Made by a program: the position numbers and the translations under genes. 64,000 bases of DNA from Chitinophaga sancti (lineage in GTDB: Bacteria > Bacteroidota > Bacteroidia > Chitinophagales > Chitinophagaceae), in assembly GCF_034424315.1 (NCBI RefSeq), contig NZ_CP139972.1, forward strand, positions 3,038,001-3,102,000. Reading direction: 5' to 3'. Below are positions 12,804-62,000 of this stretch, one piece after another (position 1 is the stretch's first letter; each line of letters starts with the position of its first letter). The notes under the pieces are model-generated. The model ran no database searches. It saw only the letters and a list, made by a program, of their open reading frames with translations, and was not told where the DNA came from.

Positions 12804-12807
12804 GGTA

Positions 12808-17193: not shown

Positions 17194-17215
17194 GGGGGTC
17201 ACAGGGTTTAATACG

Positions 17216-18929: not shown

Positions 18930-19490
18930 TTATGATTTTATAACATGCAGGGCACTGTTGTCAAGGGAGCCTTTAGGAGCTGTAGAATGGATGGTCTGGG
19001 TATCCGTCTTACCACTGATCTTCAGGTCTGCAGCGTCTTTTGTAGTAATATCGAGCGTGGTCACATCTACATCCAGTGTAGCAGCGGCATTACCGCTTAC
19101 CGTCACATCCAGATGCGTAGCTTTCAGCGTGTTCCCGGCATGCAATTCAGCGGCATTACCCACCTGAATTTTTTTCAGATGACGATAGCTCACATACACA
19201 TTCACGGTTTCTCCATTATGGGTACCTTTGGTGGTTATCTTCAGTATGCTATCTTTCACCGCCACGATCACATCACTAGCAGGAATTCCGGCTATCTTCA
19301 GGGTTGCCTTTTCTTCATTTCCCTGTTTAATATATACTTTGGCAAGGCCACTTACTTCCAGAGAATGAAATCCGGTTAAGGGTTGTGCTGTTTGCTGGGC
19401 AAATCCCATTTTCGCAGGCAACAGCCCTGCGATGCATAACATTACAATGATAATGTTAGTTACGGTTGGTAGCTTTTTCTTTTCTTTCAC
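18930..19490 (-). CDS. DUF2807 (GIN-domain) secreted protein
   Basis: A 186-residue exported protein with an N-terminal hydrophobic signal (IIIVMLCIAGLLPAKMGFAQ). Its single beta-helical head domain has the DUF2807 pattern: GFHSLEVSGLAKVYIKQGNE, then repeating strands with NAAELHAGN, SGNAAATLDVD and KDAADLKISG. Such proteins are common in the Bacteroidota envelope and are thought to be surface or periplasmic adhesin-like modules; no enzymatic role is known. The first 35 bases overlap the end of the TonB-dependent receptor gene, so the two are probably coupled. Its presence inside an NRPS operon is unusual and may mean that the receptor and this protein handle the product at the cell surface. 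Confidence 0.8.
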   Translation of the reverse strand: MKEKKKLPTVTNIIIVMLCIAGLLPAKMGFAQQTAQPLTGFHSLEVSGLAKVYIKQGNEEKATLKIAGIPASDVIVAVKDSILKITTKGTHNGETVNVYVSYRHLKKIQVGNAAELHAGNTLKATHLDVTVSGNAAATLDVDVTTLDITTKDAADLKISGKTDTQTIHSTAPKGSLDNSALHVIKS

Positions 19491-41300: not shown

Positions 41301-44300
41301 CAGGATCGACACGATATACCAGCTGGAAGTTTCCATTAATATACCCACCCGATCACCCGCTGACAAATCATAGGTCTGTTTCAGATAACGCCCCAAACAA
41401 TTCGCCTTTTCATCAAGCTCACTGTAGCTCAACGTTATATTTCCAAACACTACAGCAGTGGCATCCGGAGTCTTTTCCACCTGTTCTTCAAACAGGGTCA
41501 GGATATTGCAGGCTGCAGCCTTTTCCATCCATGGCAATACCTGCTCCTGTAATAACAGCTGTTCTTCTGCCGGATCCAGTATATTCAATGCATGGATCGC
41601 CTGCATATGATTGTTTACCACACCTTGTAATAGCATCTCATAATGTGATTGCATGCGTGCGATAGTGGCCGGCAGGAAAAGATCCCTGCAATAGTTTATG
41701 GTAACAGCAATACCCAATGCTGTCTCCTGAACAAAGAAGGTCAGGTCGAATTTGGCAATTACATTATGCTGTGGAAGGGGTTGGATGCTCACATCTCCTA
41801 AACTGTGAATGGATATATCTTCATTATTATTCAGTACGAACAATGCCTGGAAGATAGAGCTACGGCTTTTATCACGCACATTTTCTACAGCATCTACGAC
41901 CTTCTCAAAAGGAACAGTGATGTGCTCATACGCCGATAAAGTAGTATTCTTCACACGTGCCAGCAGATCCGTAAATGAGGGGTCTCCAGCAAGGTCTGTT
42001 CTTAGTGCCAGCGTATTTACAAAAAATCCTATCAGCGGTTCTATTTCCTGTTGTGGCCTGTGGGCGACTGTAGTGCCCACACAGATATCTGTCTGCCCGC
42101 TATACCGGTATAGCAATATTTTATATACAGAAAGCAACAGCATAAACATGGACACGCCCTGCTGCTGTGCCAGTAACTGCAACTGCTCACTCAGGCCCTT
42201 AGCGATCATGAAACTATGATCGGCTCCTTTTGTGCTTTGTAATACAGGACGGGGAAAATCAAGCGGCAGATGCAATGGAGCCAGTTCCTGTAATTGTTCT
42301 TTCCAGAAGGACAGCTGTGCATCCAGCAATTCTCCGGACAAATATGCCCGTTGCCATAATGTATAATCTGCATACTGAAGAGGTAACACTGGCAATTGAG
42401 AAACGCGTTTCTCTTTGCCTGCACAATACAATTCCGTGAGCTCATTCACGATCAGCGATACAGACCATCCATCTGAAGCAATGTGATGCCTTACCAGTAC
42501 CAACAAATAATCATCCAGCCCCAATTGCAACAAACGGGCGCGGATCATATGATCAGTAGAAAGATTAAAAGGTCTGGCTATCTCCTGCTCTATCAAGGCG
42601 GGCAGCTCATCCTCTGTAGCGGTGCCCACATCCAGTTTCCAGCCATCTTTGTCAAGTATTTCCTGATAACCGATGCCTTCCTCTTCCTTGAATACAGTGC
42701 GCAACGATTCATGGCGATTGACGATTTCCCTGAATGCTGATTCTAACAATGGTTTATCCAATGCCCCATTCAACCTGAACATGGAAGGCATATGATAATG
42801 GGTACTTCCCCTCAGCTGATCAATAAACCACAGCCTTTCCTGTGCATATGAAAGCGGGATCCGGGCTGGTCTTTCCTGCCTGATTAACGGTGGCAGCAAA
42901 GTACGCTGACCTTGTTTTCCTATAAAATCTGCCAGTGAGGCAATAGTGACATATTCAAAGAGATCCGTAATAGCGATCTCCATGCCCAGCTTTTTCCGGA
43001 TAGCCGACAGCACTCTGATGGCCAACAACGAATGTCCTCCAAGATCAAAGAAGTTGTCATACACACCAATCGTATCTTTTTCCAGCAGCGATTCCCATAT
43101 TACCACCAGCTCTTCTTCAATCTGATTGCGAGGTGCTGTATAGGTAGTGCTACGATCTGTAGCACCAGCAATGTCGGGTAAAGCTTTACGGTTTATTTTC
43201 CCATTCGGTGTCAATGGCATTTCGGCCAGCTCCATCATTAGAGACGGGATCATATAATCGGGCAGCGCCGATTGCAGATATTTTACTATACCATCCTTAT
43301 CATAGGCGCCCTCAGGTACGATATAGGCAGCCAGACGCTCTTCCTGTACGACCACCGTACACTGGCGTACCAGCTCCGATGCAGACAATACCACTGCCAC
43401 CTCTCCGGGTTCTACACGATAACCACGGATCTTCACCTGATCATCTATTCTTCCTAAAAAGAAGATCTCTCCAGCCTCATTTCTGCGTACCAGATCCCCT
43501 GTTCTATACAATCGGCCCTGTCCAAAAGGATTACTGATAAAGCTTTCTGCTGTCAGTGCCTCCCGGTGCAGATAACCAGGAGAGATACCATCACCTCCTA
43601 TCAAAAGCTCTCCCGGAACGCCAACAGGACAAAGCCCCATGGATCCATTTACAATATATGTTGTAGTATGGGAGAAAGGCTTCCCTATAGGTACGCTGTC
43701 ATAGGACCGGGATGAATCTATACGATGCAATAATTTCCCGATAGTGGTTTCTGTCGGTCCATAGTGATTGATGATCTGTAATGCAGGAGCGGCCCTCCTG
43801 ATCTTTTCTACCACCGCCGGTGATAATGCCTCACCACCAAAGATGATGGTCCGGGCAGGTAATAATAACCCCCTGTCGGATTCCAGCGCACTCCAATGTG
43901 AAGGCACAATTTTAATACAATCAATGGTATGCTTTTCAAAATAATCATGCAGCACATCGGCATTCATTAAGTATGCCTTAGGCAGCAGATGGAGCTCCCC
44001 ACCACTCAATAATGATCCAAATAAAACAGTATTTCCAAGGTCTGCAGACAAAGCAGACATCAAAGCAAAAGATCTGTTCTCTGCAACACCTATATGTGCC
44101 TCCAGGCCAAAATAATAATCAGTAATATTCCGATTAGTGATCTTTACTCCTTTAGGCTGACCAGTAGTGCCAGAGGTATAGATCACATAAGCCAGATCAC
44201 TCATGGTCGCTCCCGGGCCGTCTGTTATTCCGGACACCGCTTCTTCCAGCTGCAGATCTATTGAAAAGACAGGCGCATTTACATCCATCACTTCAAACAA

Positions 44301-47300
44301 ATGCTCTGATAAAATAATCAGCACCTTCACCCCTGTATCCTGTATAATAAAATTCCGGCGATCGGGAGGCAGGCTAATATCAATAGGTACATATGCTGCC
44401 CCTGTTTTGAGAATGCCTAATATCGATACCAAATACCAGTCAGCCGTATCCATCATAATACCTGCCAGATCATTTAGACCCAGCTGATAGTTATTTCGGA
44501 GATGACAGGCAAGTCTGTCTGCCTGTTCATTTAGCGCCTGATAGCTCCATTGCTGCTTTCCATACACTAGTGCTGTTGCAGCTGGTGTACGTACTACCTG
44601 ATCTTCAAATAAGCTGATAACAGTACGATTGCCTGCATACTCATGCGGAACAGGCATGACGGGAGATAACAATTCTTCCTGCTCACCGGATCGTAATAAC
44701 TGCAATGACATGATCTGTTGACCGCGATCCCTTACAACCGCCGACAGCAAGGTTTCATAATGCCCCTTCATGCGCTCAATCGTCTGGGGCAGGAACAGAT
44801 CACTACAATAGTTAATAGTAATAGCAATACCTTCAGCTGTTTCCCTGGCGAAGAAGGTAAGATCAAATTTTGCGATCTCATGCTGCAACAAAACAGGGAT
44901 CACACGCAGGTCTCCCAGCGAATGCACACTAGCATCTTCATTATTATTCAGCACAAACAGTACCTGAAACAATGAGCTACGGCTTTTATCACGATCCTTT
45001 TCTACTGCATCTACCACTTTTTCAAATGGCACGGCAATATGATCATATGCTGCAAGTGTATTACGCTTCACCTGGGCCAGGAGGTCTGTAAATGCAGGAT
45101 TCCCATCAAGATCACTACGAAGCGCTACAGCATTTACAAAAAATCCGATCATCGCTTCCATTTCCTGCTGAGGCCTGTGAGCGATGGTGGTACCTACACA
45201 AATATCCGTTTGCCTGCTATATTGATATAACAACACTTTATATACAGACAGCAGCAGCATAAAGAGCGTCACGCCCTCTTCTGCAGCCAGTTCCTGCAAT
45301 TGCCTGCTTACCTGGCTATCAACGATAAAACTTAGGCGTGCGCCTTTTGTACTTTGTATAGGAGGTCTTGTAAAGTCTGTAGGCAGGTGAAGCGGTGTCA
45401 ACTCTGTAAGCGTCTCTTTCCAGTAATCCAGCTGTTGGGCCAGGATATCTCCACTCATATGCCTTCGTTGCCAGATCGCGTAGTCGGCATATTGAAAATC
45501 CAATAGTGGCAGTTCTTGCTTACCACTATAGAGTGAGAGGAATTCCTGTACGATCAGCGCCTCAGACCAACCATCCGCAGCAATATGGTGCATCACCAGT
45601 ATCAATAAATGCTCCTGCTCAGTGATTTTTAATAAAGTAACTCTGAGCATATGATCACAGGAAAGATGGAATGGGCGGGTCACTTCGGCTGTAATGAATG
45701 GCTCCAGTTCTTCTTCTGCCAGTGATGCATCTATATAATTGATATGCCAGCCATCCAACGCCAGCACTTCCTGGTAAGGTATCCCTTCTTCTTCCTTAAA
45801 AACAGTCCGCAGTGGTTCGTGGCGGTTGATGATCTGCCTGAAACAGTCTTCCAGCAGGTTCACATTCAAATGACCCTCCAGTCTGAAAACGGACGGCATA
45901 TGATAATGAGCACTTCCCATCAGCCGGTCTATGAACCATAAACGTTCCTGAGAGAATGATAAAGGGATATGTGCAGACCGTTCTTTCCTAACTACCTGTG
46001 GCAATAAAGGCTGTGCCGTTCTGCCCTGCACCAGTGCTGAAAGATCCCTGATGGTCGGGCTGGTAAAAAGATCTTTTACCGCCAGATCAGCATTCATCTC
46101 TTTCCTGATCCCGGATATTAATCGCATGGCGAGCAGTGAATGCCCACCCATGTCAAAAAAGTTATCGTCTATCCCTACTTTGCTGATATGAAATACTTCC
46201 TGCCAAATCTGCGCGATCCCGATCTCTACAAGAGTAGTAGGCGCAATATATACAGTTTGATTTTTGCTATGATATAAGAATGGGTCTGGCAACTTTCCCG
46301 GATCCAGCTTCCCATTTGCGGTAAGGGGAATTTCTTTTACAGGGATGAAAAAACCTGGTATCATATACTCTGGCAGGCGGGTGTGCAAATACTGTTTCAG
46401 CACATCTGCAGGGAATGTTTCGCTGGCTGTATAGTAAGCAGCAATATGCTTTTCTGCTGCCTGATCTTGCTTTACGACCACGATGACCTGCCCTATACCT
46501 TCATATTTTGCCAATTGCACCTGAATCTCTCCCAATTCGATACGGTTGCCTCTTATCTTAACCTGATCGTCCATCCTTCCCTGGTATTTCATATTCCCAT
46601 CAGGAAGCAGGCATCCCAGGTCTCCGGTACGATAATATCTTTTAGGGCCAAAGAAATCCAGTGTTACAAACTTCTCAGCTGTCAGCTGCTCCTGCTTCCA
46701 ATATCCCTGTGCCACCCCCCTACCAGCGATATACAGCTCTCCCGATACGCCAACAGGCAATAATTCCTGCCGCTCATTCAGCACCAGTACCTCCATATTC
46801 GCAATAGGCCTTCCTATCAGTATCAGCTGCTCATCAGGAGCGATTTCCTTTACAATGCAGCCTACAGTTGCTTCGGTAGGTCCATACTCATTATAGATCT
46901 TAATACCGGGAGCGATCCTTCTCAGGGTAGCTACCTGAGAGGGAAGCAATTCCTCCCCTCCTACAATAGCACATTGAATATTCGAATGCGACACCTCTAC
47001 ATCTGCCAACAATGAAATATGTGTAGGGGTTAATTTTATGGCATTAATGGCATTAGCTGGCGAAAAACAATACTGTAATTGTTCTATCAGACTCAGTTCG
47101 CTATCAGGACAGAAAAGCGTATGTCCTCTGCTAAGCGTAGTGAAAATAGAAGTAATCGTAAGGTCGAAACTAAGGTTGGTTAACAAAGGAAAATTACCTT
47201 CTTCCCCACCCCTGAAATAATAACCATTCGCCCAATGGATATAATTTGACAAATGCTTATGCAGCAGATGACAGCCTTTGGGCTTGCCGGTGGTACCAGA

Positions 47301-48962
47301 AGTGAAAATAAGGTAAGCAGTATCCTCAGGCCTGGCACAGATGAATTCCTGTTGCAAGGATCCTGAAGCACCTGCCTGTTCCAGCTGGTCAAGTGTCACG
47401 CCCAGCTTAGATGCTGGCAGCTCCCTGAGGGCGACCATAGCAGCAGCATCTGTGATAATACACTTACAACCACTCTCCTCTATAATTCCCTGTAAGCGCC
47501 CCGGTGGATTATTCCTATCCAATGGCACATAACCTGCTCCTGAAAACAAAATGCCCAGCAAAGCTACAGGTGTCTCTACACTGTTGTCCATCATGATGCC
47601 AACAAGGTCGCCCCGTTGTACCCCGATCTGTTGTATCAGCGCTGTTGCTACCTGCTTTACCCGGCCGCTGAGCATGCCATAGGTCATGCGCTTCTTTTCA
47701 CTCTGTACAGCAATCGCATGCTCTCTTTCCTGGAACACAGTCAAAATTGCTTCAGGAATAGTGCTCAGGGAGAGTGTATCGTCGACGGTGTTATTATATT
47801 CCCCGATAAATGCCTGATCAAAGGTATTTACATAATACCGTGGCGTTAAAGTTTCTTCCAGCCTACATTTAAGGTCTTCACTGAGGAATGTAGCCATCTC
47901 CCTGTAGGAAGAGCTTCCCGGGAATACAAGTGTCGCCTTCCATGCATCATTTGTACGACTGATCCGCAATTTCAGGGCAGCTGTCGTTCCTTCGTTAAAA
48001 ATAAGCGCATCCGTATCATCAAATTCAAACAGAAAACGGAAATCTTTTTGTGCTAAAGACACATAATAGTAATCATTCCAGTTCCTGGCTTCTTCCAGCC
48101 GCTGCCCAACAAGGACAGCCAGTTGCTGTACATCATCAGCTATATTTTCAGGAACCAAAAATGGATAATATCTGGAAAGAGGCCCTAATACAGCACTCAA
48201 TTCTTCATAATACCGTCCATGTTCCAGACATCCGATAGTAAAAGGTGCATGGTCTGTATAGCGCGACAGGCTCTGGCCAAAGACCGCAATCAGTATTGCC
48301 TGTGGAGAAACCTTAAGGAGAACAGATAAAGCCTCTATTTTCGCGGCATTGAATGAAAAAGCTATCCTGGCAGCCGGCTCCACCGATGCTGCTGGTACAG
48401 GTACAGTAGCTGACACTTTCTCTCTAAGTTCCGTCCAGAATGCCAATGCTTCCGGATTCCCCTCCTCAATGACCTGTGCTTCCCATTCGGTATAATTGCC
48501 AAACTGTAAGATGTCAGCAGCATCGCTCAGAGTAGTATCTGCCTGAAGGATAGCTATCACTTCCTTACGTATCTCATTTGCAGAATAGGTATCCAGGATC
48601 AAAGGCAGTGCCTTCAGTATGATAGTATGCACTCCTGTATCCCTTTGCACGACGGCAATAGACAGGGGATGCTCAAGCGTTAATGTAGTTGTCGAAAAAC
48701 AATCATTCCCAATGCCAGCGGCAGCTGCCACTATCTGAAAAGGGATATGTATGCCTTCCCGGAAAACAAAGGCTGTTCTCAGAAGATCGTGTCTGTCTGT
48801 TACAAGCGCCAATGTGGCTAATATCTGTTCTGTAGGGTAATCTCCCCTTATGTTCATCTCTATTTGAATGTTGCTGAGGCCACCGGACAACAGGCGCTCA
48901 TAATCCAGCAACTGCTGTGCGGACAATTGAAACTGAGGCAAATTCATGGTCTTACAATACAA
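38355..48962 (-). CDS. NRPS-B: C*-A(Asn)-T-C-A(Asp)-T-C-A(Asp)-T-E
   Basis: 3535 residues. It begins with a condensation-like domain (10-400) in which the catalytic HHxxxDG is replaced by LPLILDTYS (119-127), so it should not form peptide bonds. Then A (407-897), T (~935), C (997-1410, HHIAADG), A (1440-1925), T (~1975), C (2034-2450, HHIASDG), A (2480-2970), T (~3010, LGGDS) and E (3062-3515, HHLVVDG, EGHGRE). Codes by eye: DLTKIGEVG (Asn), DLTKIGHIG twice (Asp). Predicted segment: Asn, Asp, D-Asp. The inactive first domain directly after a TauD-type hydroxylase gene suggests it recruits that enzyme; the real condensation would be done by the C domain ending NRPS-A. Modules 2 and 3 are near-copies 3117 bases apart. 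Met6 (48947) is an alternative start. Confidence 0.95.
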   Translation of the reverse strand: MYCKTMNLPQFQLSAQQLLDYERLLSGGLSNIQIEMNIRGDYPTEQILATLALVTDRHDLLRTAFVFREGIHIPFQIVAAAAGIGNDCFSTTTLTLEHPLSIAVVQRDTGVHTIILKALPLILDTYSANEIRKEVIAILQADTTLSDAADILQFGNYTEWEAQVIEEGNPEALAFWTELREKVSATVPVPAASVEPAARIAFSFNAAKIEALSVLLKVSPQAILIAVFGQSLSRYTDHAPFTIGCLEHGRYYEELSAVLGPLSRYYPFLVPENIADDVQQLAVLVGQRLEEARNWNDYYYVSLAQKDFRFLFEFDDTDALIFNEGTTAALKLRISRTNDAWKATLVFPGSSSYREMATFLSEDLKCRLEETLTPRYYVNTFDQAFIGEYNNTVDDTLSLSTIPEAILTVFQEREHAIAVQSEKKRMTYGMLSGRVKQVATALIQQIGVQRGDLVGIMMDNSVETPVALLGILFSGAGYVPLDRNNPPGRLQGIIEESGCKCIITDAAAMVALRELPASKLGVTLDQLEQAGASGSLQQEFICARPEDTAYLIFTSGTTGKPKGCHLLHKHLSNYIHWANGYYFRGGEEGNFPLLTNLSFDLTITSIFTTLSRGHTLFCPDSELSLIEQLQYCFSPANAINAIKLTPTHISLLADVEVSHSNIQCAIVGGEELLPSQVATLRRIAPGIKIYNEYGPTEATVGCIVKEIAPDEQLILIGRPIANMEVLVLNERQELLPVGVSGELYIAGRGVAQGYWKQEQLTAEKFVTLDFFGPKRYYRTGDLGCLLPDGNMKYQGRMDDQVKIRGNRIELGEIQVQLAKYEGIGQVIVVVKQDQAAEKHIAAYYTASETFPADVLKQYLHTRLPEYMIPGFFIPVKEIPLTANGKLDPGKLPDPFLYHSKNQTVYIAPTTLVEIGIAQIWQEVFHISKVGIDDNFFDMGGHSLLAMRLISGIRKEMNADLAVKDLFTSPTIRDLSALVQGRTAQPLLPQVVRKERSAHIPLSFSQERLWFIDRLMGSAHYHMPSVFRLEGHLNVNLLEDCFRQIINRHEPLRTVFKEEEGIPYQEVLALDGWHINYIDASLAEEELEPFITAEVTRPFHLSCDHMLRVTLLKITEQEHLLILVMHHIAADGWSEALIVQEFLSLYSGKQELPLLDFQYADYAIWQRRHMSGDILAQQLDYWKETLTELTPLHLPTDFTRPPIQSTKGARLSFIVDSQVSRQLQELAAEEGVTLFMLLLSVYKVLLYQYSRQTDICVGTTIAHRPQQEMEAMIGFFVNAVALRSDLDGNPAFTDLLAQVKRNTLAAYDHIAVPFEKVVDAVEKDRDKSRSSLFQVLFVLNNNEDASVHSLGDLRVIPVLLQHEIAKFDLTFFARETAEGIAITINYCSDLFLPQTIERMKGHYETLLSAVVRDRGQQIMSLQLLRSGEQEELLSPVMPVPHEYAGNRTVISLFEDQVVRTPAATALVYGKQQWSYQALNEQADRLACHLRNNYQLGLNDLAGIMMDTADWYLVSILGILKTGAAYVPIDISLPPDRRNFIIQDTGVKVLIILSEHLFEVMDVNAPVFSIDLQLEEAVSGITDGPGATMSDLAYVIYTSGTTGQPKGVKITNRNITDYYFGLEAHIGVAENRSFALMSALSADLGNTVLFGSLLSGGELHLLPKAYLMNADVLHDYFEKHTIDCIKIVPSHWSALESDRGLLLPARTIIFGGEALSPAVVEKIRRAAPALQIINHYGPTETTIGKLLHRIDSSRSYDSVPIGKPFSHTTTYIVNGSMGLCPVGVPGELLIGGDGISPGYLHREALTAESFISNPFGQGRLYRTGDLVRRNEAGEIFFLGRIDDQVKIRGYRVEPGEVAVVLSASELVRQCTVVVQEERLAAYIVPEGAYDKDGIVKYLQSALPDYMIPSLMMELAEMPLTPNGKINRKALPDIAGATDRSTTYTAPRNQIEEELVVIWESLLEKDTIGVYDNFFDLGGHSLLAIRVLSAIRKKLGMEIAITDLFEYVTIASLADFIGKQGQRTLLPPLIRQERPARIPLSYAQERLWFIDQLRGSTHYHMPSMFRLNGALDKPLLESAFREIVNRHESLRTVFKEEEGIGYQEILDKDGWKLDVGTATEDELPALIEQEIARPFNLSTDHMIRARLLQLGLDDYLLVLVRHHIASDGWSVSLIVNELTELYCAGKEKRVSQLPVLPLQYADYTLWQRAYLSGELLDAQLSFWKEQLQELAPLHLPLDFPRPVLQSTKGADHSFMIAKGLSEQLQLLAQQQGVSMFMLLLSVYKILLYRYSGQTDICVGTTVAHRPQQEIEPLIGFFVNTLALRTDLAGDPSFTDLLARVKNTTLSAYEHITVPFEKVVDAVENVRDKSRSSIFQALFVLNNNEDISIHSLGDVSIQPLPQHNVIAKFDLTFFVQETALGIAVTINYCRDLFLPATIARMQSHYEMLLQGVVNNHMQAIHALNILDPAEEQLLLQEQVLPWMEKAAACNILTLFEEQVEKTPDATAVVFGNITLSYSELDEKANCLGRYLKQTYDLSAGDRVGILMETSSWYIVSILGILKAGAAYVPVDGGLPQDRKAFIVNDTGMKTLIIVSESLFDVMDLSVPVFSIDIQFEETTTVAGGLEQPGGEDLAYVIYTSGTTGQPKGVKITHRNIVDYYFGLQARTGIDENRSFALMSALSADLGNTVLFGALLSGSVLHLLPKTSLMNAAVVHDYFARHSIDCIKLVPSYWSALESERGLLLPARTIIFGGEALSSGVIEKIKAIHPALQIINHYGPTEATIGKLLHRIDPSRTYDSVPIGQPFSHTTAYIVNGFMRLCPIGVPGELLLGGDGISPGYLNREDLTAEKFISNPFGQGRLYRTGDLVRRNAEGEIFFLGRIDDQVKIRGYRVEPGEVAVVLSASDLVRQCAVVFREDRLVAYVVPEGTFDKEGIVKYLQSVLPDYMIPSLMMELEEMPLTPNGKIDRKALPDIAGDTVRGKTYLAPRNKVEEELVTIWESLLKADKIGVNDNFFELGGDSIIVIQVVSKAKRKGYQLQVQDLFDHQTITALALLIEQNNTATVVAEQGLLTGSALLSPIQQWFFEQEQPNPSHFNQAVLLQVNKAIRQEDLGRAIKVLVDRHDALRFYYDGKEQTYGPTKGKLEIMELSQLEEITTACRVVQREFSITAGALIRFILFRTPHTEPSDRLFIVAHHLVVDGVSWRILIDEMQSLLDAYSATEELDLGLKTSSYREWVNALTDYAQTEQVLTQKDYWQKVSNSHQPLSSALNGHLSRRSELVAIDMRLSPEYTARLLKETNFAYNTDINDILLCALGMTISSWRKNPQVIIGLEGHGRENIFPGIDITNTVGWFTNKYPVLLEIADDDSIGNTIKSVKEQLRNIPDKGMGFGALRYLHPEPAIRHSLRSNCWDIVFNYLGQMDNVINAGSWFEAATEPSGEHIDPDYFTREKFVLKAGIAADVFSLSWSYSPEQFQGETVTRLVREYMHHLRELIDHCTTQKEKAVTPADFGLNGKLDYKELDELLGLDQVADDEGIIKF
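39890..45970 (-). repeat. tandem near-identical C-A-T modules in NRPS-B
   Basis: Modules 2 and 3 of NRPS-B repeat with a register of exactly 3117 bases (1039 codons), measured at the shared CCATAGTGATTGATGATCTG (43759 and 40642). C, A and T domains are all closely similar, with identical aspartate codes. This points to duplication of a whole module. Confidence 0.85.
47760..48930 (-). other. catalytically dead condensation-like domain (candidate interface domain)
   Basis: The first domain of NRPS-B has condensation-fold landmarks (QLLDYERLLSGG...IQIEMNIRGD, DRHDLLRTAF, GCLEHGRYYEEL, RFLFEFDD), but the active-site HHxxxDG is replaced by LPLILDT. Loss of both histidines rules out ordinary condensation. 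C-family 'interface' domains with a lost motif are known to partner with SyrP-like beta-hydroxylases, and such a hydroxylase gene sits immediately upstream. Confidence 0.7.
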
Positions 48963-48980: not shown

Positions 48981-50015
48981 TTATTTATCTCCCGCGGGTT
49001 CAATGATGGCAGTAGCAATCAGGCGACTGCCTTTATAGGAACTCCTTCCATGAGCGGCCAGCATATTGTCCAGGAATATGATATCTCCCTTTTCATAGAG
49101 GAAGGAGATCGTATTTTTATCATATGCCTGTTTCAGCTGCAGGTACTCTTCCATAATGATGTCTGTTCCATCTCCAAACAACGTATCAGTATGGATCAGA
49201 TCTGCTGGCAATGGGTCTCCGGGACGAATACCCAATTCTTCATACCTGGAATATTTATTGAAGAAAAAGACGTGATTGAACCATGTCTCTTCATTTGATT
49301 GTGGATGGGTATATACAGCTTTCTTATTCCATTCTATCTCCAGATGATCTTCACTGATGAAAGTATATCTGATATCATTTTCATAACATACATCTTCAAC
49401 AATCCTCCGGTCTGTAGTCTGGAAAACCTCCTGCCACGACATACCCAGTCCTTTGATGAGCTTTCGCCTGTATAATACTCCTTTATCCCGGAATTTCTGT
49501 ACCAGCGCGGAAGGGATATCTGCAAGAATCTTTCGGGAATCGGCAATAGGGGTCTCTCCTCCTTCCTCTGCTACCTGCAGGCAACAGAACAGGATCTTCA
49601 TGCCCCATGAACGGCTATAAGAAGATTCATTATGCAAATTGATCTTCTCTTCTTTAGGATAGACGGTTGAATTATATACATGCTTCACTTCCTCTTTCAG
49701 CTCATGCCTGGGGGAAGAACGAAACATATAAGGTAAGGGAGCGGTATCAAATATGCCTACAAAACGGCCAAAATCTTCCAGGCTCTGTATATCGAAACCT
49801 CTTAATAATACCCCTCCATACTTAAGCAAATCAGCGTCAAACTCGCTCCTGTTCTTTTTCACCCAATCCGCCAGGTCCACGCCTTTATACCGGGGCTTTA
49901 TCACCAACGGGAATACCTGCTCTCTACTCAATGGGGATTTAACCACCAGCGACTGTCCATTGACAGTAGGAACGGACCTTGTCTGTATGCGTTTTAATTT
50001 GCTCAAATTATCCAT
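48981..50015 (-). CDS. SyrP-like TauD-family Fe(II)/2-oxoglutarate hydroxylase
   Basis: The 344-residue protein is a TauD/TfdA-fold dioxygenase. The iron-binding facial triad is visible as LHNESSYS (H128, E130) and distal MLAAHGRSSYKGSR (H322), with R331 placed to bind 2-oxoglutarate. The HxE form and LHNESSYS context are those of SyrP-like enzymes, which beta-hydroxylate aspartyl or related residues while tethered to an NRPS carrier domain. It lies 11 bases after NRPS-A and 18 bases before NRPS-B, whose first domain is a catalytically dead C-like domain followed by an Asn-type adenylation domain. The most economical role is beta-hydroxylation of the Asn (or Asp) loaded by that module. Confidence 0.88.
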   Translation of the reverse strand: MDNLSKLKRIQTRSVPTVNGQSLVVKSPLSREQVFPLVIKPRYKGVDLADWVKKNRSEFDADLLKYGGVLLRGFDIQSLEDFGRFVGIFDTAPLPYMFRSSPRHELKEEVKHVYNSTVYPKEEKINLHNESSYSRSWGMKILFCCLQVAEEGGETPIADSRKILADIPSALVQKFRDKGVLYRRKLIKGLGMSWQEVFQTTDRRIVEDVCYENDIRYTFISEDHLEIEWNKKAVYTHPQSNEETWFNHVFFFNKYSRYEELGIRPGDPLPADLIHTDTLFGDGTDIIMEEYLQLKQAYDKNTISFLYEKGDIIFLDNMLAAHGRSSYKGSRLIATAIIEPAGDK

Positions 50016-50026
50016 ACCATAGGGCT

Positions 50027-53000
50027 TTAAAGGTGTTTTTTCAATTTTTTAATATTAGACTCCCGCTGATGCTTCATTCTGGAATCTTTCGCCTGTTTCT
50101 CATCGGCTGCTACAAGTGACTGAATCGATGATAATGACAGCTGACTATCAGCAAGACAATGTCCGATGAGGTATTTCAGCTTATCCAGCAACGTACTGAT
50201 ATAGGATTCTTCAAATACCTCCTTCCTGTAAGAGACTTCAAAGGAAACAGCATCTTCCAGCTCTGTAATATCAAACCAGATATCCGCCTTTACATATCGC
50301 TCTTCTTTTTGCAGGGGCTTGAAATCAAATCCAGGATAATTAATATTGCGGGTAGGTACTTTAGGGTTCAGGTTAAAACCAATATTAAACTCTCCGCCTC
50401 CTTTTCCCGTCTCCGCTCCTTCCAGCACTGCCAGCTTCAGATAAGGATATTCACTATGCGCAAGTGCAGAGACTGTAGCATCCTTCACGATCTCATAAAT
50501 AGTATCAAATCCCGGATCTGCTGCTACGATAGTCCTCACAATGATCGTATTCAGGAAGAGGCCTACGATATTGGACAATTCATGATTGTTACGACTATTT
50601 ACCGGACAGCCAAAACTAAGATCCTGCTGGCCCGTTTCCAGATATATCAATGTCTTCACCAGCGACAGCAACATTACGAACATAGTACCCTGACGCTCCC
50701 GGTTATAAGTCCTCATGGTATTGACCCATCCTGCCTCATTGATCACCAGTTTTACTACACCCGCCTGATTGGATGCTGCCGGTAATGACCTGGCTCCAGG
50801 TAATCTGACACCAAGCTGGCGACCCGATAGATAAGTCTTCCAGAAATTTTCGCTTTTCAGCTGGTCTTCTTCCCGCGCCTGCGTTGCCTGTGACCAGGAA
50901 TAGTCTTTGAAGGAGAACTTCGGAACAGGCTGCAGCACCCCACTTCTACCCTGCTGCAGATAGTGGTAGGATAAAAGCAGATCATTGAAAATAATCTGTA
51001 AAGAGAATGGATCTGATATAATGTGATGGGTATTGAAGAATATAAAGTATTCAGCCGGTGTGTTCCTTATGATCTTAATTCTCATCAATGGCCCTTTCCT
51101 GAAATCAAAGAGGAACTTGTTCTCTTCATCAAATAAACGAATCGCCCCTTTTTCGTCTACCGGCTCATTGACCATGTCCAGGAAAATGAAACCTTCGGCT
51201 GTTTGAGCAGGGTCCTGCAGATAAAACCGCAGCTCACCCTTTTCATCATAATCGATAATATAACGCAGGATCTCATGTCTATCCAGCAGCAATGTGTATG
51301 CCGATGCGATCTTATCCAGGTCAATCGCAGCTTTCACATTCCAGCCCAGCGTTGTGTTATAAGAAACAGATACGTTGTCCTGCTGTGAAGCCAGCCAATA
51401 GGCTTTCTGAATCTCTGTCAATGGATAGCTATCGGAGACAGGAGCAAGCAGCAGACTATTCTCAAATTTTCTTTCCTGAGCATCTATTAGTCTGGCCAGC
51501 GCTTCGATAGTTGGGTGTTCAAAAAGGTCTTTGATACTGATCTTCACCTTTAGGGTATTTCCTATCAGCGTGATGATCTGAATGGCCATAAAGGAATTAC
51601 CACCCAGGTCAAAGAAGTTATCCCGGATGCTTACCTTTTTCATCTTCAGCAATGTAGCCCAGATATTCGCCAGCTGTTCTTCCGTCTCATTGGCAGGCGC
51701 TTCATAATGCCCTTCATATAAGGTAGGATCTGCAGGATCCGGCAGCGCTTTTTTATCGATCTTTCCATTTGGGGTCAATGGCAATTTTTCAAGGGTCAGC
51801 AGGAAAGAAGGGATCATATAAGCCGGCAGCCTGGAACGCATATATTCCTGTAATTCCTGCTTATTGTAGGCAGGCCCCGGCACCACATAACCCACCAGTC
51901 GTTTGTTATTATTCGCATCCTCCTTCTTCACGACAACACACTCATGGATATGTGGAAACTCTTTCATGATGGTCTCTATTTCGCCCATCTCTATCCTGTG
52001 TCCGCTAATCTTCACCTGATCATCTATTCTACCCAGGCATTCGATCTCTCCGTCTGGCAGCCATCTCGCCAGGTCGCCGGTCCTATATACTTTTTCACCG
52101 GGTCTGTAAGGATTATCAAAGAATTTCTCTGCAGTAAGCCCGGGTCTCTTCAAATATCCTACCGCAACACCTTCTCCTCCTATGCACAATTCTCCTGCTA
52201 CACCTACAGGAGTAAGATGGCCCAGGGTATCTAAAATATAGATCTGCGTATTGGCAATTGGGGTACCGATGGTTACTTTATCAGGATCTATGATCTGCTT
52301 GATGGTAGACCAGATAGTTGTCTCCGTAGGCCCGTACATATTGAATATAGACCCATTCATATACCGGAACAGCTCTCTTGTCAGGGAGACAGGCAAAGCT
52401 TCTCCACCTACGAGCACAGCTTCCATCTGTTGTAAAGCCAGCTGTCCTTCAGTAGTGGTCACCAGTTCCCGGGCAAAGGAAGGTGTACATTGCATATGTG
52501 TAACACCATGTTCCTGCATCAGCTCCTCAGGAGCCCATTTCTTTTCCAATCTTTTTGCCAGCAGCTTTTTCTGAACCTCCAGCTGTTTGATAAGGTCCTG
52601 GAGCTTTTTAAGGAATGGCAGATGTGCCAGAGTAATGTCTACATCTATACCGAAATCAATCAGACAGGCCACCTCATTGACACCTGCTGCATGTAGCTCC
52701 CGGATACGGGAGAGGCATGTTTCGGGCGTACCAAAGAGACCACTGGAATAGAAGTAGCGTTGAAATCCCATTTCCAGTATGACTTCAAGATCCGTTTCGG
52801 GATCCAGCCCTGCCTGATCCACCACTGGTTTCAGGAGATCAATAGAATGGCGCAGATAATTTTTAAACGGCTCTTTTACTGTTTCTTTGATAACCTGCAG
52901 GTCATCCCCTACAAAGGTATGCAGCATGACAGCCACCCTTCCCTGTTCAGGATCAAAGCCATTTGCTGCCAGCGCCGCACGGTACTGACTGATCTTATCT

Positions 53001-56000
53001 CCCAGATCCTCTATCGATTGGCCTAAAAGATGGGTCAGCACATTCGCGCCGATACTACCTGCATATTTAAATGTCTCAGGATTGCCTGCTGCTGTAAGCC
53101 ATATCGGCAATGAGGACTGTACTGGTTTAGGATGTATGGTAACAGCAAAATCATTGCCTGCGCCATTTTTACGAAGCACTGTTTCTCCATTCCACAACTG
53201 GTGCAGTGTTACCAGCTTATCCTTCATTTTCTGATGACGCGTTTTATAATCCTCCGGCATAAAGACGAAGTCATTGGGGTGCCATCCGGAAGCTACCGAC
53301 AATTCTACGCGGCCATTGGAAAGATTGTCCACCATGGACCATTCTTCCGCGACCCTGATGGGATCATGGAGAGGTAATACCACACTTCCCGATCTGATCC
53401 GGATATTATTTGTGAGCGCAGCCACTGCTGCAGCTGCCACGGATGGATTAGGGAACTGGTCGCCAAAGCTATGGAAGTGGCGCTCCGGTATCCAGACAGC
53501 CTCCAGTCCATTATTGTCGGCAAACTTTGCCCCTTCCAGTAATAACCGATATTTATTGCCGGCAGTGATCTCTTCCTGTGCAGCGAAATAGAATAAGCTG
53601 AAATCCATGACGGTTCTTTCTGTCATCGGCACCGGTCTGTCTGGTAATATCACTACTTTTTTGCCGTTGGTCAATGTCCAGAATAATTCCAATACTGAAA
53701 TATCAAAGCTTATACTGGTAACTGCCAGCCAGGTCTCCTGCTTTTCTGACTTGCCGAATTTTATATCCAGTCCTACAAAGAAATTCGTCACATTGCGATG
53801 ATGGATCATCACTCCTTTAGGCCTTCCGGTGGAACCAGAAGTATAGATCACATAAGCCAGTGGCTGCTCTTTCCAATGTAACCGTATGTCAGAACCAGGT
53901 TTACCGGCCAATAGCTGTTGCAGCGCCTGTTCATCCAGGTTCAGCGTATGCTTTACCTGATCAGCCGGAAGTATATGTTGCGTATCATTATTAACAAGGA
54001 GATATTCAGCTTCTGAATCGCCAAGCATATATATAAGGCGATCCACAGGATAGGTAGGATCCAACGGGATATAGGCTCCTCCCGATTTCAGGATACCCAA
54101 CAATCCTATCATCATGTCCAGAGAGCGGTCAATACAAATAGCCACCATATCCCTTTCTTTCACCCCTTTTTCTTTCAGGTGCCATGCCAGCTGATTGGCC
54201 TTTTCATTCAATTCTTTATACGTCAGTGACTTTCCTTCAAAAACCAGGGCTATATGATCCGGCGTTTTTTCCACCTGTGCCTCAAAAAGATCTACGATAG
54301 TCATTTCTCTGGCATAATCCACGGCCGTATCATTAAATGCTGTGATCAACTGCTGCTGTTCATCCCTGGCAAGAATGGATATCATTGACATCGGCTTGTC
54401 AGCAGCTTTCAGCAGCTCCAGCAAGGTACTTTCAAAATGACCTTTGATCATGCCTGAATAATAGGGTGCCAGGAGCTCACTATTATAACCAAAATCAAAA
54501 CGCAATCCTTCTTCCTGATCTACAGCAGTGAGGGTCATTAAATAATTGGTGCGCTCTTCCAGCTGGATATTCGCGGCAGGCAGCAGACGGGCGGCTTCCG
54601 GAGATTCCATCTTCGGATAGTTTTCGAATACTACTATCGTATCAAATGGTTCACCATGTAAACCAATCCATTGCTGGATCTCATTCAGTGATGAATATTG
54701 ATAACGACGGGCCTCAGTATGGCCTTTTTGTAATGAGCGCAACCAGTCGATCAACAGCTCATCGCCTGCTATCCTGCTCCGCAAAGGCAGGTTATTGATG
54801 TATAAACCTACCCGACGTTCTGATTCCGGCAGGTCTGAAGGACGACCAGATACCACTACGCCAAACACGACATCGGAACTGCCTGTGTACTTGCTCAGCA
54901 GAATAGACCAGATACCCTGTACAAAAGTATTTACCGTGATCTGATGCTGCTGACAATAGCTTCTAACCTGCTCTGTCAATACAGGTGCCAGCAACAGCTG
55001 CTCATGTTTCACCGCTGCGCCGCCTTTATTCCTGTGATGATCAGATATATTGGATACAAATGGTAATAAGGTCTTATTGGAAATATCCGACATATAGGTC
55101 TTCCAGAAAGACATCGCGGCATAATGGTCAGTCCGGGTGATATAGCGGATATAATCTCCATAATGATCAATGGTCTTACCTACCGGAGCCCCCCCTCTGG
55201 AATAGGCTGCATAAGCCTGCTGGAAGGAGGCTATTAGCGAAGCATTTGACCAGCCGTCCAGAATGATATGATAATGGGTCCACACCATTTTATACAATCG
55301 CTCACTGAGACGTATCAGGGTGATCCGCATCAATGGTGCTTCCTGGAAATTAAAACCTCGTTGCAGGTCGGCCGCCAGGAAAGCTGTCAGATGTGCTTCC
55401 TGTTCTTCTGTACTTAAATAACTATAATCCAATACCTCAAATGGCAGGCTTACTTCTTTGAACACACATTGTACAGGAATGCTCAGGGCATCTGCAAAAA
55501 ATCCACTCCTCAATATGGTATGATGCTTCAGCAGATCCTCCCAGGCTGCCCTGAAAGCGACAAGATCAATTCCTTCCGGAAAATCAACCCTTAATTGTTC
55601 CATGTATGCTTTTCCATCCTCATCATAAAGATGATGGAACAATATGCCTTTCTGTAATGGGCTGAGACGATACAGATCACTGATCTTATCCCTGCCTTTA
55701 GCATCCAGGAAACGGGACAGCTCTTTATACCCGACTTCCGGCGCCAGACCATAGTCAGATGGCGTACGCTCTCTTTCTCCCAGATCACGGCAATGCCCGA
55801 TCAATGCACCTAAATGATCAATAAAAGCAGCCGATAAGCTTGCGATAGTTTGCGTATCATATTGTTCATGTGAATAGCTCCAGCGAACTGTCAACATCCC
55901 CTCGCTGATAATACCACTAATATCCAGCTTCGTAGTATAAGGCCATCCTGCACCAGTAGTATCTCCCATATGTTCCTGTGCCCCTCCTAACAATGTATCA

Positions 56001-59000
56001 TCTTCCAGTACATTGTCTGTCTGTCCCAGATAATTGAACACAATATCCCATCGTCCGCCAGACAAACGTTTATCCGGATGCAGATAACGTAATAATCCAT
56101 ACCCAAGACCTTTCTGTGGCACATGACGCAACTGCTCTTTGATACTCCTGATCTGATCGGCCCCTGTAGCAATATCTCCGGTGTCCAGTAATATCGGATA
56201 CAGGCTGGTGAACCAGCCCACTGTCTTGCTGGTATCCAGATCATGTGAAATATATTCCCTGCCATGACCTTCCATTCCTAGCAGCACTTTGGAGGATCCT
56301 GTCCATGTGGACAATGTCATCGACAAGGCGCTTAATAAAATATCATTAATCTCTGTATTATAAGCACTATTCACTTCCAGCAACAGCGATCGGGTCAGAT
56401 CCCTATCCAGCTGTACCGTGTGATGCACACGGGTGGCGGCGGTATTATTACCAGCCCTATCTACTGGCAATGGGGTATAATGAGAGATGACTTCTTCCCA
56501 GTAAGCTAACTGAGATGTAACAATCGGGCTTACCGCATACGCTTTCAGCGCATCCGCCCACTGCCGGTAGGAAGTACTCTTCTTACCCAGATGAATGGCA
56601 TCTCCTGCCAGCACCATCTTCAATGCTGCATGGAACTGTTCCAGCAGAATGCGCCACGATACACCGTCTACCGCCAGGTGATGAATCACCAGTAATAAAC
56701 GGTTATGACGCTCAGAGGATGGCGTATTAATCAGCACACCTTTTATCAGATAGCCTTTCTCTATATCCAGACTCCTTTGGTATATGTCACAGACATCTGT
56801 AATACTACCTGCAAGCACAACTTCTTCCATCTCTGGCTGCGTATCACTATATCGCTGTACCCAGGCATCTGCCAGCTGTTCATAACGGAATCGTAAAGCA
56901 TCATGCTGTGATACCAGGGCTTTTAATACATGCGACAGCTGTATGATAGAGATCTCCTTATCTATACTTAATAACTGTGACTGATTATAATGAGAACGAC
57001 TATCATAATCCTGATCCAGAAACCATTGCTGTATAGGCAACAACGCAGCTTCTCCCGTCAGTACTCCCTGCTCTGCAGCATTATTCGTCTGCTCTTCCTG
57101 CAGCTTCGCCGCCAGCACCGCTATGGTCTGGCCCTCAAAAAGATCCTGCGGATGCAAGGTCAATCCATAACGACTGGCACGACTGACTACCTGTATACTG
57201 ATAATAGAATCACCCCCCAGCTCAAAGAAGTTATCATGGATCCCGATACGTTTAGTATGCAACAACTCCTGCCAGATAGTGGCCAGCCGCTCTTCTGTTT
57301 CATTCCTGGGCGCCTCATATTCATTGCTCGTTAATACTGATACTTCAGGATCCGGCAAAGCCTTCTTATCTATCTTTCCATTAGTCGTCACAGGTAACGC
57401 GGATAATTCCATCAGAAGAGCAGGCACCATATAATCTGGTAACCGCTGCTTCAGATATGCCTGGATAGCTTCTCTGTCATAGCGCCCCGTTGCTACGATA
57501 TAAGCTATCAGCCGCTTATGACCACCTCCGTCTTCACGGGCTATTACAATACCCTGATCCAGTAAAGGGCAGCTATTCAACACAACGTTTACCTCCCCAA
57601 GCTCTATGCGATAGCCACGGATCTTCACCTGATCATCCACACGGCCCAGGAACTCAATATTTCCATCCGGCAACCATCTGGCAACATCACCTGTCTTATA
57701 CAAACGCCCCTCGCCAAATGGATTCGCAATAAATTTCTCCGCCGTCAGCGCTGGCCTGTGCAGATAACCTCGTGCCAGACCAGCACCGCTCACATATAAA
57801 TGCCCTTCCACACCTATTGGCACTAACTGCATATGCGCATCCACGATGAATACCTTCATATTCGCCAATGGCTTGCCTACCGGAATCTGATTCCGTATGT
57901 CAGCATGCTTATCCACTGCATAGGTAGATACGCAGACAGCACATTCAGTAGGGCCATAAGCATTGTAATAGCCACCAATACCTGCATAATAAAGGGCATC
58001 TGCTACTATAGCTGCTTCCCCTGCTGTGATGATGGCACGTAAAGCAGGCATCTTCCTGCGATCCAGCGTCTGTAGATACACTGGCGGGAAAGTGATCACA
58101 CTGATGCTATGCTCTTTTATATAGGTCAGGAAGCTGTTTGCATCTGCAATAACAGCTTCAGGTATTAATACCAGTGTAGCCCCACAATAAAAGGCCATAA
58201 AGATCTCAGAAACAGAAGCATCGAATGACAAAGAAGCAAATTGCAGCACTCTGTCATTGGCAGTAACCCCGAACTTTCGGATCTGATCCAGCGACATATT
58301 TACATTGCTGGTATGCTCGATCATCACACCCTTAGGCAGGCCAGTCGAACCGGATGTATAGATCACATAAGCCAGGTCTGTAGGCTTGATCTCATAATCC
58401 CGCTTATATACATCCTTCTTTTCAAAATCATCAAATTGCAGATCCACGGGCAATATGCTCACCTGCAGGTCCATGGTATCAAACATGGACGAAGATTCAA
58501 TGATCAGCACCTTAAGCCCCGTATCATTTATAATATAGGATTTACGATCCAGTGGATAAGTGATATCTATTGGCACATACGCCGCACCTGCCTTTAACAC
58601 CCCAAGAATAGCCACCACTGACCATATGGAGCGATCCATCATAATACCTACCAGATCATCAGCCTGTAAAGCATATACAGTGCGTAAATAATGGGCGAGA
58701 CGATCTGCACGCTCATTCAGTTCCTGATATGTCAGGGCCTCCCCTTTATAGATCAAAGCTGTCTGATCAGGTGTTTTGCCTACCTGCTCCTCAAAGACAT
58801 CTACAATGGTTTTGTCGCTCGGATATTCAGTAGTAGTATCATTAAACTCAACCAGTAAACCCTCTTCTTCTGCAGAGGTCAATATCTTGATATCGGCGAC
58901 CCGTTCTTCTCCTACATTAAGCAGGTGGTTAAACACCTGTTCAAAATGCCCTTTTATCATCCGGGCATACACAGATTGCAAAAGATCACTGTTATACGCG

Positions 59001-62000
59001 AAGTCAATGACCAATTGTTCCCGAAGACTTACAGATAGACTTAACAGATAGTTCCTGCGTTCTTTCAGATGCAGCCCTTCTGCTTTTAACAATTGCTCTT
59101 CTGCCTTGTATTTTGCTTTGGGATAATTGTCAAATACCAGTACGCTATCGAAAAGATCTCCCTTCAGGTCTGTCCAGTGCTGTATGTCATTAAGAGATAC
59201 ATATTGATAGCGTCTTGTATCCGTATGGTCATTTTGCAGTTTACGCAACCAGCTGCCTACTGTCTGATCTGGTTCAATGCTGACACGAAGAGGTAGATTA
59301 TTAATAAATAATCCTACCCTTTCTTCTGCATGAGGAAGATCTTCCGGTCTTCCGGATACAACCACACCAAATCCTATATCCCGGCTACCTGTATATCTTC
59401 CCAGCAATAAGGACCATACACCCTGAATGAGCGTATTCATGGTAATCTGCTGCCCCTGACAATATTGTTTCAGGTCTTCTGTTAATGCAGGGCTGATACG
59501 AAGAAACTCATGCCTTACCTTTCCATCTCCCTTGTTCCGTTCATGATCCTGGATATTACCGGCAAATGGCAGTAAAGATTTACTAAACCCTGCCATCCGG
59601 TTCTTCCAGAAATGTGCTGCAGCATGGTGATCAATACCTGCTATGTAGCGGATATAATCTCCATAGTTATCCTCCTCCCTTACTGCCGGTTTATTGCCTT
59701 TCACCAGTGCAGTATAAGCCTGTAAAAACTCGCCGATCAGTACAGAGTTGGACCATCCATCCAATACGATATGATAACGTGTCCAAACCATCCTGTACAG
59801 CTTACTGTTCAGGCGGATCAGCGTGATCCTCATCAACGGGGGAGCCTGCAGATCAAATCCCTGTCTGAAATCGGATTCCAGAAATGATGACAATGCAGCA
59901 TCCTGTTCCTCTTTATTCAAATGGCTATAATCCAGCAGTGCAAAAGGCATCTCTACCTGCTTATGTATTACCTGAACAGGAATGCTTAATACATCCACTA
60001 TAAAAGCAGCCCTTAATGCAGTATGCTGATGCAGTATATAACTCCAGGAATCTGTAAACGCAGCAATATCTATCCCTGCAGGGAAATCCAGTAATACCTG
60101 TTCCAGATAAGAAGTGCTTTTATCATATAAATAGTGGAACAGCATTCCCTTTTGTAAAGGGCTGATACGGAAAATATCACTGATCTGATCTCTGCCCTGT
60201 GTATCCAGGAAAAGAGACAATTCTTTATAACCTACTTCCGGTACCAATCCGTAATCAGAAGGCGTATGCTCTTTTTCACTTAGCTCACGGCAATGCACTA
60301 TCAGCTCACGCAGGTTATCAATAAAGGAAGCCGACAAGCCTGCAATGGTCTGTGCATTATATTGCTCGTGCGAATAGCTCCAGCGCATATTTAATAGGCC
60401 ATCACTGATCACCCCACTGATATCCAGTTTGCTTCCAAAAGGCCATCCCGCGCCTGATACGGCTCCCATATCCTCTGTAGCAGCCTCCAGCAGCGCATCA
60501 TCTTCCAGTACATTGTCGGTCTGTCCGAGATAATTGAATACGACATCCCATTGTCCGGCAGATAAGCTTTTCTCCGGATGCAGGTAGCGCAATAACCCAT
60601 ACCCAAGACCTTTTTGAGGCACATTACGCAATTGCTCTTTGATACTCCTGATCTGATCGCCGGGAGTAGCGATATCACCCGCATCCAGCAATAATGGATA
60701 CAGACTGGTGAACCAACCTACTGTCTTGCTGGTATCCAGCTCATGTGAGATATACTCCCTGCCATGGCCTTCTATACCTACCAGCAATTTAGATTCTCCT
60801 GTCCATGCACATAAGGTCTTTGCCAAAGCGCTTAATAGTAAATCATTGATATCTGTGTTATAAGCAGTATTTACTTCCAACAACAATGAACGTGTCAGCT
60901 CACGGTCCAGCTGTAAACTGTGATGTACACGAGTCGCAGCTGTATTGTGACCAGACCTGTCTACTGGCAACGGGGTATAATGAGCAATAACATCTTCCCA
61001 GTAAGATAACTGACCAGTAATATGAGGGCTTACCGCATACGCTTTCAGCGCATCGCCCCATTGCCTGTAGGAACTACTCTTCCTGCCCAAATTAATGGCA
61101 TCTCCTACCAGCACCATACTCAGCGCTGTCTGGAACTGCTCCAGCAGTATACGCCATGACACACCATCCACTGCCAGGTGATGCACCACCAGCAATAACC
61201 GGTTGTGACGCTCTGACGATGGCGTATTGATCAACACTCCTTTTATCAATTGCCCTTTAACCACATCCAGGCTACTTTGATAACGGGTACAGATGTCGGT
61301 GATATTTTCTTTCAGCACCACCTCTTCCAGCACCGGCAGCGTGTCACTATAACGTTGCATCCAGTGAGCTCCTATCTGCTGATAACTGAAACGTAAGGCA
61401 TCATGCTGTAATACCAATGCTTTAAATACCTGCGATAACTGTGAAAAAGTGATCGCCTTATCTATACTTAATAGTTGTGACTGATTGTAATGAGAACGAC
61501 TATCATACTCCTGCTCCAGGAACCATTGCTGTATCGGCAATAATTCAGCGGTACCAGACAATTCCCCTTGTTCAGCTGCCGTGCTAACCTGCTCCTGTTG
61601 TAGTTTTGCCGATAATACAGCAATTGTCTGGCTCTCAAATATATCACGTGGATGCAAGGTCAGTCCATAACGGCTGGCACGGCTCACTACCTGTATACTG
61701 ATAATGGAGTCACCACCCAGCTCAAAGAAGTTGTCATAGATCCCAATCCGTTTCGCGTGCAACAATTCCTGCCAGATAGTTACCAGCCGCTCTTCTGTTG
61801 CATTACGAGGTCCTACATACTCATTGGATGCCAGCGCAGATACATCCGGATCTGGCAACGCTTTCTTATCAATCTTTCCATTTGATGTCAAAGGCAGCCC
61901 AGATAATTCCACCAATAAGGATGGCACCATATAATCTGGCAGATGTGCTTTCAGATAGTCCAGCATACCGTTCCTGTCATAACGCCCCGCTGCTACAACA

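Follow-up and report, generated by a model that had tools for sequence, protein, structure and literature searches.

A glycine adenylation domain with an embedded luciferase-like monooxygenase inside a Chitinophaga sancti peptide assembly line, and its predicted alpha-hydroxyglycine

We analyzed a 64,000-nucleotide stretch of the Chitinophaga sancti genome (contig NZ_CP139972.1, positions 3,038,001 to 3,102,000; hereafter, the window), which lies on the single contig of this 8.42-Mb genome and carries a cluster of nonribosomal peptide synthetase (NRPS) genes. In NrpsA, a synthetase encoded on the minus strand, the glycine-coded adenylation (A) domain of module 5 (A5) is interrupted by a luciferase-like monooxygenase domain of the flavin mononucleotide (FMN) type, here called MOX. 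The module most probably represents a variant form of the glycine-oxidizing A[MOX] module already known. We favor the reading, probable from the domain content, that MOX hydroxylates peptidyl-glycine, that the resulting alpha-hydroxyglycine is kept, and that the chain passes to the next synthetase, NrpsB, via a divergent condensation domain, C*. The sequence gives the identity of the domain, the Gly code, the insertion site, the domain order, and the conserved neighbors.

The MOX domain (52601 to 53608, minus strand) matches TIGR04020, the MupA/Atu3671 family of luciferase-like monooxygenases, with 481.7 bits against a curated cut-off of 244.45 and over model positions 1 to 340 of 341, and it matches PF00296 with 174 bits, in frame within the minus-strand open reading frame (ORF). 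It is the sole TIGR04020 match above the cut-off in the genome, which holds three weaker matches elsewhere. An earlier note, made from the sequence alone, had placed a luciferase-like monooxygenase at 52560 to 53640 inside a Gly-coded A domain, and our profiles bear out both the assignment and, within about 40 bases, the coordinates. A5 is split in the interval between core motifs a4 and a5: the N-terminal part (53609 to 54286, through a4) reaches position 221 of the 480-position profile and the C-terminal part (51743 to 52600, a5 onwards) begins at position 196, their edges overlapping. The reading frame through A5[MOX] is uninterrupted, A5 keeps the motifs YTSGSTGRPKG and NMYGPTE, and the carrier (T) domain that follows, T5 (51482 to 51685, by Pfam and profiles), keeps LGGNS. 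Domain boundaries here and below come from profiles made from the window's own domains, with Pfam and NCBIfam scans alongside. Substrate codes were read by profile columns, with the MOX insert masked in the alignment of A5, and the amino-acid meanings are those that we take these codes to have. The two parts of A5 contribute the residues D-I-L and Q-L-G-M-I-W, and the combined code, DILQLGMIW, is that of Gly.

Among solved proteins, the nearest is the PuwE OX domain (PDB entry 6KET; 360 bits, or 488 bits by profile), and the similarity spans the full length. An AlphaFold model of MOX built from six sequences adopts the luciferase-like barrel fold with a mean predicted local distance difference test (pLDDT) score of 84.3. 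It superimposes on both 6KET chains with template-modeling (TM) scores of 0.88 and 0.90, at 48 to 49% identity in the structural match, and on luciferases with scores of about 0.73 to 0.81, normalized by the query. The motif PERHFH is common to MOX and PuwE, where bacterial luciferase has E-H-H, and MOX holds the columns that are invariant among six relatives. The active site is no more than plausible in a model that lacks FMN and is poor in two loops (residues 44 to 51 and 109 to 119). PuwE OX is proposed to contribute to a 2-hydroxy acyl group that is kept in the chain (PMC4219810; here and below, we draw on excerpts of the cited papers). Like MOX, it is a luciferase-like monooxygenase within an assembly line whose hydroxyl is proposed to stay; unlike MOX, it sits between polyketide synthase (PKS) and NRPS parts, outside any Gly A domain, and its substrate is a beta-amino acyl chain.

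MOX might instead be inactive or act on another substrate, so that plain Gly is incorporated. Its catalysis is predicted from sequence, and skipping of the flavin monooxygenase (FMO) step has been described for solanimycin A (excerpts of PMC10204066). This reading is nonetheless distinctly unlikely given the 78% identity of MOX to its nearest orthologue, the full-length similarity to PuwE, and the intact frame. The pairing with the Gly code argues in the same direction: of the 94 non-redundant A domains that bear MOX and whose code could be read, 92 are coded for Gly and the other two are beta-Ala-like. In proteins P0005 and P0006, MOX is inserted late (a8-a9) in beta-Ala-like A domains (ADWVVSLAD and VDWVVSLAD), which would make isoserine.

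By profile mapping, NrpsA has the order A1-T, C-A2-T-E, C-A3-T-E, C-A4-T-E, C-A5[MOX]-T5-C*, where C and E denote condensation and epimerization domains. The module is internal, as the earlier note had recognized: a complete C domain comes after T5, and six more modules follow, three on NrpsB and three on NrpsC. In MtaG and MelG, a Gly-coded A domain is likewise interrupted by a monooxygenase between a4 and a5, but a thioesterase (TE) follows and the product is a C-terminal amide (PMC10204066 and PMC9396620), whereas A5[MOX] is followed by C* and six modules with no TE; this comparison is by published description, and neither name occurs among the best 120 listed of 7,319 protein matches to MOX. 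The closest characterized parallel by position is module 4 of SolF, where an internal Gly A domain carries an FMO at a8-a9 and solanimycin B contains alpha-hydroxyglycine (PMC10204066). Both systems embed a flavin monooxygenase in an internal Gly A domain, and the chain, which continues in SolF, would continue in the window. The two differ in the insertion site (a8-a9 versus a4-a5) and in the dehydroalanine run that follows in solanimycin, and the excerpts of that source mention no split between a C* and a catalytically dead C domain. Alpha-hydroxyglycine also occurs in the nonribosomal peptides skyllamycin and epoxinnamide, as predicted for the window's product, where it is made by separate oxygenase proteins (Sky39 and EpcG) rather than by an NRPS domain (PMC9321520 and PMC10204066).

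To assess how common internal A[MOX] modules are, we searched proteins and genomes with the MOX domain. The protein searches returned 990 matches among large proteins and 7,319 among smaller ones, with the best 120 of each listed and embedding checked for part of them. The locus sample comprises the best 80 of 555 confirmed stretches in species genomes; it leans to close relatives and includes some metagenome-assembled genomes and some genomes with more than one locus. MOX is flanked by A-domain parts in 74 of these 80 loci, while in others, such as L081 and L085, the domain has no flanking A-domain parts. A further elongation module comes directly next in 55 of the 74: a C or E domain on the same protein (17 loci), a next gene that begins with a ketosynthase (KS; 33 loci), or a next gene that begins with a C domain (5 loci). 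Only four of the 74 have a TE- or reductase-sized tail (TE in L048 and L064; a reductase-type domain in L020 and L057), and the remaining 15 have no near neighbor, a contig edge, or no visible T domain. Since most embedded domains among the sampled loci are internal, and SolF is a published internal case (PMC10204066, in the excerpts available), the internal position that the earlier note had judged unusual is not so; that note read the anatomy correctly and overstated the rarity. The MOX family occurs in 16 of 79 genomes of the genus, several times in other cluster types, and in 3 of 294 genomes drawn evenly from the taxonomic family. We found no account of internal a4-a5 MOX-Gly modules, or of E domains behind them, in the open-access literature, a scope that leaves most subscription journals outside. 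In the 33 loci with a KS-first gene, PKS extension of alpha-hydroxyglycine would give an N-acyl aminal, as in pederin-type polyketides.

Glycine has no stereocenter and alpha-hydroxyglycine has one. Among modules with an E or C domain in cis, an E domain follows 10 of 43 MOX-Gly modules versus 1 of 41 plain Gly modules (the lone case being P0216; Fisher's exact p = 0.007, with rows that are not independent and with MOX-Gly and most plain Gly modules drawn from different searches, so that lineage bias is possible). Other modules are followed by E in 88 of 806 cases; this last set was not de-duplicated, as the two Gly sets were at 92% identity. A smaller plain Gly control, with E in none of six (p = 0.32), had been enlarged by a dedicated search to the 41 modules used here. 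The excess of E domains behind MOX-Gly modules suggests a retained stereocenter, and it offers a testable sequence sign of retention. In a FastTree phylogeny of 179 MOX rows, the 14 rows with E require at least 11 changes, and the well-supported branches by themselves force at least five changes for the 11 E rows without a late insert. That late insert is a further domain toward the end of the A domain, present in 40 of the 179 rows; the single example examined is an FkbM methyltransferase (PF05050), whose activity would be suited to O-methylating the new hydroxyl. We also evaluated the MOX tree as a predictor of final versus internal position, and the labels are scattered (for a4-a5 rows with a large tail, six changes for seven rows), so that position in the tree is no predictor of cleavage. 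Outside the orthologues, the nearest MOX is P0013, which stands for the Pedobacter entries P0014 and L011 and has E-C-A-T and a TE on the same protein. In Pedobacter sp. KBW06 (L011), whose MOX is 70% identical to that of the window, a single protein reads C-A[MOX]-T-E-C-A-T followed by a TE.

We turn next to the junction between NrpsA and NrpsB. C* (50093 to 51379, minus strand; assigned by motif, tree, and PDB match) has HHIISDP in place of HHxxxDG and therefore keeps HHxxxD, and its best PDB matches include the C domains of Txo1, bacitracin synthase 3, Txo2, and PvdL. A TauD/TfdA-type dioxygenase gene (48981 to 50015, minus strand; Pfam) separates NrpsA from NrpsB, with gaps of 11 bases to NrpsA and 18 bases to NrpsB. 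NrpsB opens with a condensation remnant (47853 to 48962, minus strand) that has LPLILD where HHxxxDG is expected, and the HH motif is absent from this domain in all four genomes aligned. Lacking HHxxxD, it would leave module 6 in need of outside help. The set of A[MOX]-T-C*, TauD, and dead C-A is shared by the window, Chitinophaga sp. YR573 (L010, the same genome as G355), G310 (taken as C. flava), and Mucilaginibacter lappiensis (L009). C* behind a MOX module was found in six distinct proteins, and among 79 genomes of the genus it occurs at 44 to 100% identity in C. sancti itself, G355, and G310; a fourth match, at 29%, resembles a generic C domain. In an 84-row tree of C and E domains, built by a quick method and subject to long-branch artifacts, C* groups with its orthologues in a single clade (support 100). 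A terminal C domain lies on the near upstream gene of 5 of 10 dead-C-first genes versus 2 of 69 active-C-first genes; among starts without a C domain, it does so in 4 of 10, one of which is the orthologue L117.

Several observations weigh against retention and handover. C* is divergent (stem branch, 1.87), with Pro where HHxxxDG ends in Gly, and the entry that ranks fourth among its PDB matches bears the title "Special condensation domain in NRPS"; we regard its condensation activity as uncertain. Of the five pairs of dead C and terminal C, four are the window and its orthologues, with one genome counted twice, which leaves L123 as the only independent case, and T or E stands upstream of the other five dead-C-first genes. 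Ahead of A1, NrpsA opens with about 250 residues judged by eye to be a degenerate C piece, so that a second start at NrpsB is conceivable. The a4-a5 interval is the insertion site of the cleaving MtaG and MelG, and the characterized internal case, SolF, has its insert at a8-a9. Module 5 in the window has no E domain after it. Finally, the two poorly modeled loops of MOX lie near the expected active site with pLDDT below 50, and in a profile alignment the luciferase His44 corresponds to Arg in MOX, as it does in PuwE.

The earlier note had raised programmed chain cleavage into two products. Cleavage would leave a C-terminal amide and a glyoxylyl thioester, the latter hydrolyzed by C* as by the TE in MtaG, and NrpsB would start a second peptide. 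The shared insertion site, a divergent HHxxSDP clade of C*, and C-like openings of both NrpsB and NrpsA, as start modules might have, are all in keeping with this, and crocacin provides a precedent for a hydrolytic C-like release domain. However, Pfam scans detect no TE on NrpsA, NrpsB, NrpsC, or NrpsD, and HHxxxD is kept in C* while the opening C domain of NrpsB is the one without it. The tightly spaced order of C*, TauD, and dead C-A is conserved, the pairing of a terminal C with a dead C extends outside the orthologues (L123), and close MOX relatives have further modules in cis. We therefore disfavor cleavage as improbable.

Alternatively, alpha-hydroxyglycine might form on the line and be processed later, whether through oxidation or cross-linking, with TauD as one candidate enzyme, or through cleavage once the product is released. 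In each of the four orthologous loci the TauD gene comes immediately downstream, and N-acyl hemiaminals are labile by established chemistry. Against this, the Asp and Asn codes on NrpsA and NrpsB would give TauD an ordinary role as an Asp/Asn beta-hydroxylase, and we consider later processing unlikely.

We thus return to retention with transfer through C*, which also agrees with the alpha-hydroxyglycine that the earlier note had offered as a likely outcome. In the proposed sequence of events, module 5 would load Gly and condense onto it the upstream peptide, which would end in a D-configured Phe/Tyr-like residue; the C domain of module 5 (54353 to 55624, minus strand) is of the DCL type by profiles and the C/E tree and stands behind the E domain of module 4. 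MOX, supplied with reduced FMN presumably by a separate reductase, would hydroxylate the Gly alpha-carbon on T5 to give a peptidyl-alpha-hydroxyglycyl thioester. The hemiaminal would stay uncleaved, C* would hand the chain on to T6, loaded with Asn, on NrpsB, where the opening C domain has no catalytic motif, and NrpsB and NrpsC would then add six residues.

All genes of the cluster given a strand here lie on the minus strand. The window holds the 3' two thirds of the 7,229-residue NrpsA (50027 to 64000; ORF and profile mapping), which runs about 7.7 kb beyond the window end. Its remaining codes are DASTIAAVC (aromatic) for A1 and A4, DLTKIGHIG (Asp) for A2, and DATKVGEVG (Asn-like) for A3. 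NrpsB (38355 to 48962) reads dead C-A6-T-C-A7-T-C-A8-T-E, with DLTKIGEVG (Asn) for A6 and DLTKIGHIG (Asp) for A7 and A8. NrpsC (26118 to 38348) reads C-A9-T-C-A10-T-E-C-A11-T-terminal C, with DILQIGMIW (Gly) for A9 (35295 to 36731), DLTKIGEIG (Asn) for A10, and VDWVTSIAD (beta-Ala-like) for A11 (27666 to 29069). The divergent C domain (HHALTDD; 26178 to 27275) at its terminus, together with the lack of a TE by Pfam on the four NRPS proteins, bears on how the chain is released. NrpsD (12808 to 17256) reads C-A12-T-C, with a Gly code for A12, and is adjoined by an alpha/beta-hydrolase gene (10854 to 12824; Pfam).

Between NrpsC and NrpsD lie several accessory genes. A pyridoxal phosphate (PLP)-dependent decarboxylase (23509 to 24996) has aspartate 1-decarboxylase PanP as its best NCBIfam match (439 bits; cut-off, 606), and with the beta-Ala-like A11 it suggests that the cluster probably makes its own beta-alanine. 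It is flanked by a CmlA-type diiron beta-hydroxylase (21860 to 23488; CmlA_N, 304 bits) and by an aminoglycoside-6-adenylyltransferase-like nucleotidyltransferase gene (25136 to 26146; PF04439), which scores 58 bits against an AadS model with a cut-off of 450. Another Chitinophaga genome has a relative of the latter (L126, 14299 to 15231 in minus-strand numbering) next to a CmlA gene, behind a protein with A[MOX]-T-E; the role of such genes is perhaps in tailoring or self-protection. A TonB-dependent receptor gene (19456 to 21843; Pfam), a short gene (18930 to 19490), and an ABC transporter gene, which lies between the short gene and NrpsD, complete the set.

The predicted product is most likely a peptide rich in Asp and Asn, with alpha-hydroxyglycine in mid-chain and, if the line begins at NrpsD, a length of about twelve residues. 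NrpsD is a possible first protein; the C/E tree does not support a single clade of C* and the terminal C domain of NrpsD, which leaves the order D-A-B-C to domain counts and gene order. The predicted Asn-Asp-Asp-Gly stretch (NrpsB and A9), together with CmlA, TauD, and the TonB-dependent receptor, makes a metal-binding acidic peptide possible; iron binding is described for chitinopeptins, which come from this genus (excerpts of PMC9248904). Falcitidin was also considered as the product and found no backing, as the retrieved text on chitinopeptins is silent on this cluster.

Amide release (MtaG and MelG, a4-a5) and retention (SolF, a8-a9) are the two described fates of carrier-bound oxidized Gly. 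The family in the window pairs the MtaG site with an internal position and could test what decides between cleavage and retention. More broadly, we propose, with somewhat less than even confidence, that internal A[MOX]-Gly modules are widespread, nearly uncharacterized writers of chiral alpha-hydroxyglycine. E domains would set its configuration in several lineages, in others it would be O-methylated by an FkbM-type domain that shares the A domain with MOX, and C* would have evolved in the family of the window for a hemiaminal donor across a split module. Judging from the matched proteins, for part of which embedding was checked, alpha-hydroxy- or alpha-alkoxyglycines may be far more common than known structures suggest.

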